Positions 22,801 to 26,808 of a stretch of DNA of 40,154 nt are shown here, piece after piece. The position numbers and the translations under genes were made by a program. Under the pieces are notes generated by a model. The model made no database searches and was not told the origin of the DNA. It saw only the letters and a program-made list of their open reading frames with translations. Each line of letters opens with the position of its first letter. Within the stretch, counting starts at the first letter, position 1. Origin of the DNA: Actinomycetota bacterium (lineage in GTDB: Bacteria > Actinomycetota > Actinomycetes > Nanopelagicales > Nanopelagicaceae); assembly GCA_015660815.1 (NCBI GenBank), contig JACSDF010000009.1, positions 1 to 40,154 on the forward strand, written 5' to 3'.

Positions 22801-23313
22801 ATGCCTCACTTTCCGCATGATGAATTCGCTGATGCTTTAAAAGCAAATGATGAGTACATCAAAGAATTTAAATACTCCGGGTTAACTGGAGTTGCCCAAC
22901 AAGGTATAGCCATAGTCACCTGCATGGATTCGCGCATTAATCCCTTGTCGGTTGTCGGTATGCGATCTGGAGATGCAAAGATTCTCCGTAACGCGGGTGC
23001 TCGCGTAACTGAGGATGTTCTTCGAACACTAGTTTTGGCCACATACTTACTCGGCGTACGGCGTATTTTGATTATGCCGCACACTAACTGCCGAATGGCT
23101 ATGGTTGAAGAGGCCGATATCCATGCACATATTCAAAAAGAGTTTGGAGTTGATACTAGAAGCCTTGAGTTCCGAACTGTCTCTGATCAGACTAAGGCTC
23201 TAATTACTGATGTAAATCGGGTTCGCTCGTATCCATTACTCAATGATGGGGTTGTCGTTGGCGGAGCGATTTACGATGTTGCAACTGGGAAAATCACTCC
23301 GATTGATTGTTAG
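22801..23313 (+). CDS. Beta-class carbonic anhydrase
   Basis: Hydrates CO2 to bicarbonate. The 170-residue protein has the beta-class zinc ligands C41 (CMDSRINP, with D43-R45 as the catalytic dyad), H94 and C97 (MPHTNCRM), and the segment KILRNAGARVTEDVLRTL. It is short, as in the small beta-CA clade found in Mycobacterium (Rv1284-type). ATG 22801 follows GAAGGGA. Its 3' end overlaps that of the convergent hydrolase by 20 bases. Confidence 0.9.
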   Translation: MPHFPHDEFADALKANDEYIKEFKYSGLTGVAQQGIAIVTCMDSRINPLSVVGMRSGDAKILRNAGARVTEDVLRTLVLATYLLGVRRILIMPHTNCRMAMVEEADIHAHIQKEFGVDTRSLEFRTVSDQTKALITDVNRVRSYPLLNDGVVVGGAIYDVATGKITPIDC

Positions 23314-24070
23314 TTCTTCTAATTGGCATTCGCGTCGCTGGATAATTTAAATCTTCAAGGAACTGAACTATCACTGCGTTCATGAGATCGGGTTTTTCTT
23401 TCACAACAGCGTGTGATGTTCCCGGAATAACTGCCAACTGTCCCAAAGGCAACGCCTCAAAAAGTGCCACAGTGTGCGAGTGGGAAATAATGTCATCGTC
23501 ACCAACTAGAACAAGCACCGGGCATTGAATTGTGGCGATTTCCTCAAGCGTAAGTGTGGGTTCACTCTCCCAAATTTCCTGCATTCGAATCGTTTTTTCA
23601 AGCAACGTGTGTGGTGCATCGGGTGAAATCAAGTTGTACTCTGCTTGATCCTCTTCAGAAATCTCAGGGTTATCAAATGTTTGCATTACGCCGGAGTGGT
23701 GGAAATTTGCACCAATTGCAACGATAGATTTAACGAGGTCGGGACGCGCTATTGCAGCCATTAACGCGATATTTGCACCATCGCTCCAGCCAATTAAATG
23801 TGCAGGCTCCTTAACAATATCTTCAAGGAATGCGATTGCCTCACGAGTTTGAAAGTCAAAGTGCAAGCTATCGTCTTGATCTCCGGTGAAGCCATGTGCA
23901 GTGCGATCATAAGCAAAAATATGGAACTCATCTTCAAGCGGAGGAACCAAGATGTAGTCCCAGCTCGATGTCTTACTTAAGCCACCGTGCAGTAAAACAA
24001 CGGCCTCACCATCATTTTCCCACTCATAACTATAAATTTGATGCCCTCGAAGGCTCACGTAATCTGGCAT
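23294..24070 (-). CDS. Alpha/beta-fold hydrolase
   Basis: A 258-residue cytoplasmic hydrolase. Oxyanion strand LLHGG (26-30), nucleophile elbow GWSDGAN with S96, an acid in LVLVGDDDIIS and the late histidine in PGTSHAVV complete the triad. The substrate is unknown; esterase or C-C hydrolase are possible. Its ATG overlaps the NDH-2 stop (TAATG), so it is co-translated with ndh. There is no signal peptide. The last residues (MPIRRTNNQSE) are read from DNA that also encodes the end of the carbonic anhydrase on the other strand. Confidence 0.85.
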   Translation of the reverse strand: MPDYVSLRGHQIYSYEWENDGEAVVLLHGGLSKTSSWDYILVPPLEDEFHIFAYDRTAHGFTGDQDDSLHFDFQTREAIAFLEDIVKEPAHLIGWSDGANIALMAAIARPDLVKSIVAIGANFHHSGVMQTFDNPEISEEDQAEYNLISPDAPHTLLEKTIRMQEIWESEPTLTLEEIATIQCPVLVLVGDDDIISHSHTVALFEALPLGQLAVIPGTSHAVVKEKPDLMNAVIVQFLEDLNYPATRMPIRRTNNQSE

Positions 24071-25305
24071 TACATTGAATCCATAATATGTCGGTTGCCA
24101 CGGTCAAAAGTTAAGTAATTCCACGTCCAATCGGCCACAGTTCCAATCTTGTTGCGCCCACCTAAGAGATAGAACAAGTGAAGAAATAGCCATGCATACC
24201 AAGCTGGAATGCCCGCAAATTTAAAACCCTTCACTTCAACAATTGCCTTATGGCGTCCAATCGTTGCCATTGATCCTTTATCGCGATATGCGAATGGCAG
24301 TAAGGGTTTTGTTTCAGATACTCTCCGTATCTGCTGGGCTACGAATTTTCCTTGCTGCAAGGCAACAGGTGCGACCATCGGCAAAAGGCGTCCGTCTTTA
24401 CCTTTTATTCCCGCAATATCACCAATCGCCCACACATAAGGGTAGTTTTTAACTTGAAGAGAATGTTCAACATCTATCCGTGAATTTACTAGCGGGAGGT
24501 TTAGTAGCGCTGCAGTTGGTTCTCCCTGTACTCCAGCGGCCCAAATTATTACCTGCGCTGGAATTGAAGCCCCATCTTTAATCTCGATTACTCTCGATTT
24601 AATCTGTGCGACTGCGGTATCAAGGTGAACTATTACGCCAAGCTTTTCGAGATCTCGCTTTGTTCGCGCTGAAAGGCTCTCTGAGAAGCTAGGCAACAAT
24701 CGCGCACCAGCTTCAATTAAATGGATTTCAATGTGGGCCGCTGCATGTGCTTGGTCATTTTTTAGTGGCCCTCGTACAAGTTCAGCAAATGCTCCAGCCA
24801 TTTCAACTCCTGTAGGTCCACCACCAACTACTGCAATTGAAAAAACAGTTTCATCCTCGAATCGACAGAGATCTTCAAATCGGCGCATTACTTCGGCGCG
24901 TATTGTGATTGCCTCATGAACACTCTTCATTCCAAGGGCATGCTCATTCACACCTGGGACGCCAAAGTCGGCAGTTACTGATCCCAGTGCGACTACAAGA
25001 TGATCGAATTCAAGGGTTTCGCTGCTATCTAACTTTATAGTTTTGTTTTTATGGTCAACTGAAATCGGAGAACCCATTCGAAAAGCGACTCCCGTCTTAC
25101 GAAGTGCCCCGCGGACTGGGTGTGCGACATGATCGGCGGCAAGACCGGCAGTTGAGACTTGGTACAAGAGCGGGAGAAAAGTTTGGAAGTTGTGTCGGTC
25201 AACGAGAGTGACATTGGCAAATTCGGCCATGGCTTTTGCAGCAGTTAAGCCTCCAAAACCGGCACCAAGAATAACCACTCGTGGTTTTTCAAGTTTCTTT
25301 TGCAT
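24070..25305 (-). CDS. ndh: Type II NADH dehydrogenase (NDH-2)
   Basis: A 411-residue flavoprotein that passes electrons from NADH to quinone without proton pumping. FAD site: VVILGAGFGGLTAA (G14, G16, G19) near the N-terminus, with the second glycine motif VVGGGPTGVEMAG for NADH and the FAD-closing segment YVWAIGDIAG. TFLPLLYQVSTAGL is typical of NDH-2. The C-terminal part (about 350-411) carries the amphipathic membrane-binding region with WLFLHLFYLLGG. The start ATG 25305 lies 7 bases after TAGACT, and that -10 interlocks with the one of the divergent epimerase gene. Confidence 0.92.
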   Translation of the reverse strand: MQKKLEKPRVVILGAGFGGLTAAKAMAEFANVTLVDRHNFQTFLPLLYQVSTAGLAADHVAHPVRGALRKTGVAFRMGSPISVDHKNKTIKLDSSETLEFDHLVVALGSVTADFGVPGVNEHALGMKSVHEAITIRAEVMRRFEDLCRFEDETVFSIAVVGGGPTGVEMAGAFAELVRGPLKNDQAHAAAHIEIHLIEAGARLLPSFSESLSARTKRDLEKLGVIVHLDTAVAQIKSRVIEIKDGASIPAQVIIWAAGVQGEPTAALLNLPLVNSRIDVEHSLQVKNYPYVWAIGDIAGIKGKDGRLLPMVAPVALQQGKFVAQQIRRVSETKPLLPFAYRDKGSMATIGRHKAIVEVKGFKFAGIPAWYAWLFLHLFYLLGGRNKIGTVADWTWNYLTFDRGNRHIMDSM

Positions 25306-25312
25306 GCGCCTG

Positions 25313-25322
25313 AGTCTAGGCT
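25313..25322. promoter_or_regulatory. Interlocking divergent leaderless -10 boxes
   Basis: On the minus strand TAGACT (25318-25313) lies 7 bases before the ndh ATG. On the plus strand TAGGCT (25317-25322) lies 7 bases before the epimerase ATG at 25330. The two hexamers share the TA pair 25317-25318, so both promoters cannot be bound at once. Confidence 0.5.
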
Positions 25323-25329
25323 TTCAAGC

Positions 25330-26808
25330 ATGAGTGCTCCAACCCAAATCCGCAAATACCTAATAACCGGCGCATCTGGATACGTAGGGGGGAGATTAGT
25401 TCGCTCACTGGTCGATGAAAAATTTGATATTCGAATTCTCGTGCGTGATCGAAAAAAGGTCATAGGCCAGCCGTGGGCAGAGGCCGTTGAAATTTGTGTA
25501 GGCAGAGCCGAAAACCGAGCCGATTTGGATGCAGCTTTAGCTGGAGTTCACACCGCTTATTACTTGCTTCACTCAATCAATCTTGGCAAAAACTTTCAGG
25601 ATATCGAAGCCGAGATGGCACGCAACTTTGCACAAGCTGCAGAGGCAGCTGGTGTTGCACAGATTGTTTATCTTGGTGGTATCGCAAATGATGCAAATAT
25701 AAGCAAACATTTAGCTTCACGCGTTCGCACCGGTAAAGAGCTAGCCAGTACATCGGTACCAGTGATGGAGTTACGAGCAGGCATCATAATTGGTTCGGGT
25801 TCGGCTAGTTTTGAAATGTTACGTCACTTAACTCATCGCCTACCAATCATGACAACGCCTAAATGGGTTACGAATAAAACCCATCCGATTGCTATTCGCG
25901 ATGTTTTGTACTATTTAAAAGCCGCTGCGACTTTAAAGGAACCAGTCGGAAGAGTCTTTGATATCGGCGGTCCCGAGGTTTTGACATATGCCGACATGAT
26001 GCAAAAGTTTGCCAAACTATCTGGTTTAAAAAAACGTTGGATAATTAAAGTTCCAGTTCTGACTCCAGGGCTTTCAAGTTTATGGATTGGATTGGTTACC
26101 CCAGTCCCAACGGCTTTGGCAAGGCCACTTGTCGGTTCTCTCATAAGCGAAGTTGTTGCCGACCCTGCAAAAAGTATTAACGATCTTATTGCGCCACCAC
26201 CAGAAGGTTTATCCGATGTTGCAACGGCGATTACTTTGGCACTTTCAAAAATTACTGATCATGGTGTTGAAACCCGTTGGTCAGATGCGACGCCGACAAC
26301 AGCGCCATGGCAAAAAGCCCAAGGAGATCCTGAGTGGGCAGGCGAGATGGTATTACGTGATCGCCGTGAAGCACTGACCGATATTTCAATTGAAAAGATC
26401 TGGCGCCAAATTGAAGGAATTGGTGGAGATCATGGCTGGTTTGGCGTTGGCTTTCTATGGTGGATACGAGGATTACTTGATCGACTCGTTGGCGGTGTGG
26501 GCTTGCGTCGCGGCCGCCGCGATCCCGATTTTTTGCGTGTGGGAGAGAGTCTAGATTTTTGGAGGGTAGAAGAGTTAGATCGAGGTCACCATCTAAAACT
26601 CTATGCCGAAATGGTCCTGCCAGGTAAAGCCTGGCTGGAGTTCACGGTAACGACAGCAAACGGGAAAACCCGAGTAGTTCAAGAGGCGGTTTTTAAACCG
26701 CGTGGACTTGGCGGTCAGTTATATTGGTATGCAACCTCCCTATTTCATCTCTTTGTTTTTCCAACGATGCTTCGAAATATAATTAAAAAGGCGGCAATTG
26801 ATGCATGA
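25330..26808 (+). CDS. NAD(P)-binding epimerase-like protein with C-terminal DUF2867 domain
   Basis: A 492-residue fusion. Residues 1-310 form an atypical short-chain dehydrogenase (NmrA-like) with ITGASGYVGGRLVRSL as the nucleotide-binding loop, YLGGIANDANIS instead of the usual YxxxK, and ELRAGIIIGSGSASFEMLRHL. Residues about 335-485 match DUF2867, a START-like domain with LRDRREALTDISIEKIWRQIEGIGGDHGW. The whole architecture is common in Actinobacteria but its substrate is unknown. ATG 25330 (MSAPTQIRKYL) gives the correct N-terminus. It overlaps the decarboxylase start by 8 bases. Confidence 0.82.
   Translation: MSAPTQIRKYLITGASGYVGGRLVRSLVDEKFDIRILVRDRKKVIGQPWAEAVEICVGRAENRADLDAALAGVHTAYYLLHSINLGKNFQDIEAEMARNFAQAAEAAGVAQIVYLGGIANDANISKHLASRVRTGKELASTSVPVMELRAGIIIGSGSASFEMLRHLTHRLPIMTTPKWVTNKTHPIAIRDVLYYLKAAATLKEPVGRVFDIGGPEVLTYADMMQKFAKLSGLKKRWIIKVPVLTPGLSSLWIGLVTPVPTALARPLVGSLISEVVADPAKSINDLIAPPPEGLSDVATAITLALSKITDHGVETRWSDATPTTAPWQKAQGDPEWAGEMVLRDRREALTDISIEKIWRQIEGIGGDHGWFGVGFLWWIRGLLDRLVGGVGLRRGRRDPDFLRVGESLDFWRVEELDRGHHLKLYAEMVLPGKAWLEFTVTTANGKTRVVQEAVFKPRGLGGQLYWYATSLFHLFVFPTMLRNIIKKAAIDA

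Follow-up and report, generated by a model that had tools for sequence, protein, structure and literature searches.

In the bacterial bidirectional promoters described by Warman and Grainger, -10 elements of opposite strands overlap. The definition given for the class takes in transcription starts on opposite strands that lie 7-25 bp apart (PMC10268837), and distances of 18, 10 and 23 bp are reported as common (PMC12825309). Another useful point of reference is M. tuberculosis. According to Cortes et al. (2013, PMC3898074), its promoters have a TANNNT -10 element without a -35 motif, and transcripts are leaderless in 26% of the genes with a primary start. The same paper calls closely juxtaposed divergent promoters common and describes prpD and its divergent regulator as both leaderless. 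For the actinobacterial group to which the present locus belongs, our literature search found no promoter or leaderless study.

The locus lies in a stretch of 40,154 nucleotides (the window) from a Nanopelagicaceae assembly of 1.59 Mb. Two genes diverge there. The one on the minus strand, ndh (24,070-25,305), encodes a type II NADH dehydrogenase-like protein of 411 aa; the one on the plus strand (25,330-26,808), which we will call the epimerase gene, encodes an SDR/NmrA-like protein with a DUF2867 domain, 492 aa in length. Both frames are real genes, each with Pfam matches (Pyr_redox_2 at 1.1e-48 and NDH2_C at 1.3e-7 for ndh; DUF2867 at 4.4e-35 and NmrA at 1.4e-14 for the epimerase). Directly downstream of ndh, and touching it at 24,070, is an alpha/beta hydrolase gene (23,294-24,070, minus strand), which probably shares one transcript with it.

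The start codon of ndh is the ATG at 25,305 (CAT at 25,303-25,305 on the plus strand) and that of the epimerase is the ATG at 25,330 (25,330-25,332), which leaves a gap of 24 bp. Read along the plus strand, 25,303-25,332 consists of CAT, 7 nt, the 10-bp AGTCTAGGCT at 25,313-25,322, another 7 nt and ATG. The predicted -10 of ndh, TAGACT (25,313-25,318, minus strand), and that of the epimerase, TAGGCT (25,317-25,322, plus strand), have the TA step at 25,317-25,318 in common. An earlier, sequence-only reading of the window had pointed to this gap, these hexamers and their overlap, and it was exact in coordinates as well as in letters. The list of open reading frames would start the epimerase at a TTG at 25,300. 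This start was rejected, as the conserved in-frame start sits 6-8 nt past the element.

We suggest, with a probability of roughly 0.8, that the junction is a minimal leaderless bidirectional promoter. RNA polymerase holoenzyme, presumably with the housekeeping sigma factor, would engage AGTCTAGGCT in either orientation through TAGACT or TAGGCT. Transcription would begin about 7 nt past each hexamer, at the first base of the respective start codon, with predicted starts at 25,305 for ndh and 25,330 for the epimerase. Both mRNAs would then be leaderless, the two 7-nt stretches between -10 and ATG (25,306-25,312 on the minus strand for ndh, 25,323-25,329 on the plus strand for the epimerase) would be discriminators, and the 24-bp gap would contain the promoter alone.

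The spacing on which this suggestion relies can be judged against the rest of the genome. In 293,665 sampled bases (20 stretches together with the window; 262 called frames, 255 usable starts), TANNNT stands 6-7 nt ahead of the first ATG or GTG in 49 of 255 called genes and ahead of 24 of the 1874 internal in-frame ATG or GTG codons that served as a control. The commonest hexamers at this spacing are TAGACT and TAGGCT, six each out of 58, one of each being that of the present junction. On both sides of the junction TANNNT ends 7 nt from the start codon, as expected of leaderless actinobacterial genes and at a spacing enriched genome-wide. Findings of this kind suggest that many genes of this actinobacterial group are transcribed without a leader, leaderless initiation being common there.

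A -35 element was also sought. An E. coli-type sigma-70 scan returned 0 sites in 24,300-26,300, where shuffles yield 2.3, as would be expected if -35 elements are absent. Where a -35 would be expected on either side, visual inspection gave only TTG-like partial matches, and the profile of related junctions has no conserved hexamer at that distance. Because no -35 is recognisable, the match is limited to the -10-only actinobacterial type; this and the empty scan weigh against the bidirectional promoter. With a motif as weak as TANNNT, one might even suppose that the true promoter of one gene, or of both, lies elsewhere and that the hexamers match by chance.

Such a coincidence would hardly survive comparison with relatives, a check that the sequence-only reading had itself proposed. 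Among the collected loci (L001-L201), 186 have both genes in divergent orientation and 15 are without one of them by tblastn. Removal of 10 duplicates leaves 176 distinct ndh-epimerase junctions, which span 12 of the 17 sampled Nanopelagicaceae genera. AGTCTANNNT, with the TA common to both hexamers, is present in 176 of these 176 junctions, which are linked by descent and were counted without a tree-based test. Since the element is kept in every junction across 12 genera while the flanks vary, it is, on this comparison, beyond chance, and the supposition that the hexamers are accidental was rejected; we regard it as scarcely credible. The automatic spacing filter had found no 10-mer in four rows and had made a wrong pick in at least two, and the recount was anchored on AGTCTA. 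AGTCTANNNT also occurs in four further junctions outside the 176 (L332-L335). One of the 15 dropped loci (L111) has AGTCTAGGCT, but it lies at the end of a contig and its ndh is limited to about 12 residues.

In a 60-base profile of the 176 junctions, positions 1-6 and 10 of the element carry 2.0 bits each and, the epimerase start codon excepted, every other position carries at most 0.91 bits. AGTCTAGGCT is the form found in 95 of 106 junctions in the window's genus, AGTCTACTGT is the most frequent form in 7 of the other 11, and the remaining junctions have AGG, GAG, TTG or GTG as middle bases. Thus the TA and the final T of the epimerase hexamer are invariant and its three free positions vary, as TANNNT permits. 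If starts are placed conventionally, the general form ANNNTANNNT has T at -7 and A at -11 for both directions, and these bases (A1, T5, A6 and T10) are invariant in 176/176. As to the genes themselves, the family sample of 121 genomes includes 119 with an ndh match (in some just a weak paralogue), and the genus sample of 135 genomes includes 119 with an epimerase match, which is weak or partial in a few.

The -10 of ndh is conserved beyond what TANNNT requires. All six bases of TAGACT are the same in the 176 junctions, and the middle three vary elsewhere in the genome. An excess of this kind counts against the bidirectional promoter. A different suggestion is that the 10-mer is read by a dimeric regulator and that its role as two -10 elements is at most secondary. 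It has in its favour that AGTCTAGGCT comes close to a palindrome, that the element AGTCTAGACT of locus L324 is a perfect one, and that the AGTCTA half does not vary. A dimeric regulator, however, sits poorly with invariance of one half only, the other half varying at just the three free positions of TANNNT. It also sits poorly with a nearly fixed spacing to the start codons, at which TANNNT is enriched in the genome, and with the recurrence of the design, in other letters, at unrelated gene pairs. On one-half invariance, fixed spacing and recurrence we rejected the operator and consider it very improbable.

We return to the bidirectional promoter and to the question of leaders. In 173 of 176 junctions the epimerase has an in-frame start 6-8 nt from the element (at 7 nt in 162), the exceptions being L028, L030 and L140. 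On the other side, ndh has an in-frame start at 6-7 nt in 112 junctions and at other spacings only in 61, and none was found in 3; where a second start was available, in 8 of the 112, the one nearest 7 nt was preferred. The 61 junctions and the three epimerase exceptions are further points against the proposed promoter. A Shine-Dalgarno-like 4-mer precedes 39 of 46 ndh genes with a leader of at least 20 nt, about 15% being expected by chance from simple arithmetic. It precedes 0 of 111 leaderless ndh genes, a figure that we did not count as evidence because the -10 fills that space and the absence is for the most part a matter of room. These two groups leave aside 9 junctions with an uncertain ndh start, 4 unassigned ones and 6 with a start at 10-14 nt. 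As judged from start spacing, ndh is predicted to be leaderless at most but not all junctions, and the leadered lineages retain the shared element. The sequence-only reading had claimed two divergent leaderless promoters with overlapping -10 hexamers; comparison supports this with leaderless starts in most cases, and both promoters stand as predictions.

Since the overlap persists where ndh has gained a leader, shortness of the gap alone does not account for it. It could be that selection keeps the overlap, with no switch involved, because the ratio in which the two genes are expressed is thereby fixed or noise is reduced; divergent activity is reported to have cut noise at one E. coli promoter (PMC12825309). 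But a leader placed between -10 and ATG leaves the overlap untouched, and entanglement alone also predicts persistence. Retention is probably aided by such entanglement, the shared bases serving two genes, because most changes within the element would harm at least one promoter. Moreover, the pairs have come apart in several lineages. Selected coupling of this sort is a suggestion that we find unlikely, if worth keeping in mind.

The lineages in which the pairs came apart are informative about the two halves. Eleven ndh loci have no adjacent epimerase; the epimerase-side T is kept in 5 of them and TAGACT in 6, so that the epimerase half has decayed in 6 of 11. For the T, a Fisher test of 176/176 against 5/11 gives 8e-9, a raw value that ignores relatedness. 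In L186, L189, L190 and L191 the homologous position was placed by eye. Survival of the T in five of the eleven loci is held against the bidirectional promoter. The converse loss, of ndh beside the epimerase, is seen in three members of the genus. In two of them (L037 and L055) TAGGCT stays 7 nt ahead of the epimerase start and TAGACT is gone, L037 retaining a formal TANNNT, TAACTT, on the lost ndh side. In the third (L039) the element is gone and a co-directional carbonic-anhydrase-like gene lies upstream of the epimerase. Among 12 epimerase loci of the family that lie away from ndh, about 600 bases of each being read, AGTCTA is absent in 11, and the exception is L324. In sum, when a partner is lost its half often decays; the decay is partial and seen in few lineages, and on comparison it supports the bidirectional promoter and is not decisive.

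Partners have also been exchanged. In L324 (G070:C44), whose genome has only a weak ndh-like match, it is a hydrolase that faces the epimerase, across the perfect palindrome. The same is seen in L037 (G136:C15) and L055 (G200:C49); the hydrolase is the next gene of the ndh operon.

How would the two directions affect each other? With predicted starts 25 bp apart, two polymerases probably could not bind simultaneously, as far as geometry tells. The sequence-only reading had gone further: polymerase bound one way would exclude the other, and the junction would act as a built-in either/or switch, with respiration on one side and the neighbouring pathway on the other. Exclusion stands, as something that geometry alone suggests. 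The switch, in which occupancy one way shuts off the other and ndh and epimerase are expressed alternately, fares worse. The overlapping hexamers and close starts would suit it, and strengthening one direction can repress the other in E. coli (PMC12825309). However, five of five E. coli promoters are reported to work in vitro without substantial competition at basal activity, competition being seen only once one direction was strengthened (PMC12825309), and here no recognisable -35 would make either side strong. In the analyses made here, no sign of a regulator or operator came up. A switch may exist, but it is not what one would expect by default, and we think it quite unlikely. Activity of both promoters independently is the likelier basal state, because basal activity in the five E. 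coli bidirectional promoters was too low for substantial competition. The most likely behaviour of the proposed promoter would be constitutive, low-to-moderate expression in both directions with little interference.

The shared-TA layout is not confined to this gene pair. In 45 genomes of the genus, CAT-N6-ANNNTANNNT-N6-ATG occurs 133 times and the reversed pattern 16 times, counts that are not independent as orthologous sites recur; it is above the control in 40 of the 45. In the window's own genome, the form with 7 nt on both sides is found at 5 places against 1 in the control, and the form with 6 nt on both sides, ATG or GTG being allowed, at 10 against 3; the 7/7 search left out GTG starts. 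The 6/7 form is without excess (2 against 4 in the control), another point against the bidirectional promoter. Together these searches give 17 distinct places, and six of them have frames of at least 80 aa with Pfam matches on both sides: ndh/epimerase, DAO-GCV_T/choline kinase-like, EPSP synthase/SRAP, polyprenyl synthetase/MTHFR, ThiS-like/TauE and MgtE_N-CBS/EamA. Pfam was run only where frames of at least 80 aa lie on both sides, and on locus L342. With AT in place of TA there are 7 places, one of them with two frames of at least 80 aa, neither with a Pfam match. The five pairs other than ndh/epimerase are leaderless-like and correspond to L345, L346, L347, L348 and L350 (around 1501-1528 in each).

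Sharing comes in several arrangements. Seven divergent leaderless-like pairs in the 293,665-base sample have several hexamer offsets, and overlap by just the TA is found in the window's pair alone. On this evidence the shared-TA layout is one design among several in this genome. Two loci of the same sample (L208 and L221) have TAGACT and TAGGCT in divergent orientation, side by side without overlap, at offset 7; sharing is consequently not obligatory. At L342 (about 1501-1600; G000:C1:43546-43573), a SpoU-type methylase gene has a shared-TA element opposite it that is aimed at an eight-codon frame, MATINTPR. Close behind this comes what seems to be the frame of a secreted protein, and similar elements are present in several genomes of the genus.

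The epimerase reaches well beyond the family, with a match in 134 of 148 genomes of the class, 123 of them outside Nanopelagicaceae. At the 20 best-scoring non-family loci, taken from the 123 such genomes (tblastn 1e-5, about 1.5 kb of flank), ndh beside the epimerase was found in none. The ndh-epimerase junction thus looks, by these comparisons, like a family-specific invention. Several metagenome bins in which Planktophila-like loci occur bear the name Bifidobacterium breve, Streptomyces griseus or Clavibacter sp. in their titles, which looks like misassignment.

A more speculative suggestion can be made about the meaning of all this. Selection may have held a doubly leaderless promoter throughout the family, exclusive occupancy tying the amounts of NADH dehydrogenase and of the SDR-DUF2867 enzyme to each other, with a fixed ratio or lower noise as the outcome. 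The junction would then be one of a genome-wide class in streamlined freshwater actinobacteria, where overlap replaces regulators that small genomes may lack. We offer this tentatively and think it improbable as a whole. If correct, promoter overlap would do the work of regulators in these bacteria.

Compared with described systems, the overlap, spacing and conservation seen here, which sequence and comparison establish, would place the junction in a known class, that of bidirectional promoters. The likeness to the promoters of Warman and Grainger lies in the overlap of -10 elements of opposite strands, here TAGACT and TAGGCT in 176/176 junctions. Sharing of only the TA would give 23 bp between starts with 6-nt discriminators, by simple arithmetic, and gives 25 bp with the 7-nt discriminators of this junction; the predicted distance fits the 7-25 bp of the definition (PMC10268837) if both starts are the ATGs. 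Unlike those promoters, this one is predicted to make two leaderless mRNAs, has no recognisable -35 and would occupy the whole intergenic region. It has been followed through 12 genera and, in contrast to theirs, is known from sequence alone. With M. tuberculosis it shares TANNNT, the absence of a -35 motif and predicted leaderless starts (PMC3898074). Leaderless mRNAs are, however, described as almost absent from the respiration genes of that species (PMC3898074), whereas ndh is predicted to be leaderless here; a shared TA is not known to be described in that paper. What is unusual is how complete the conservation is, together with the collection of natural variants. In effect, nature has run a long experiment with one 10-bp element in 12 genera, with partner losses, a partner swap and the gain of a leader on one side. 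These variants allow one to ask by comparison whether competition between polymerases is favoured by selection or simply put up with, a matter that has been studied with five E. coli promoters (PMC12825309).
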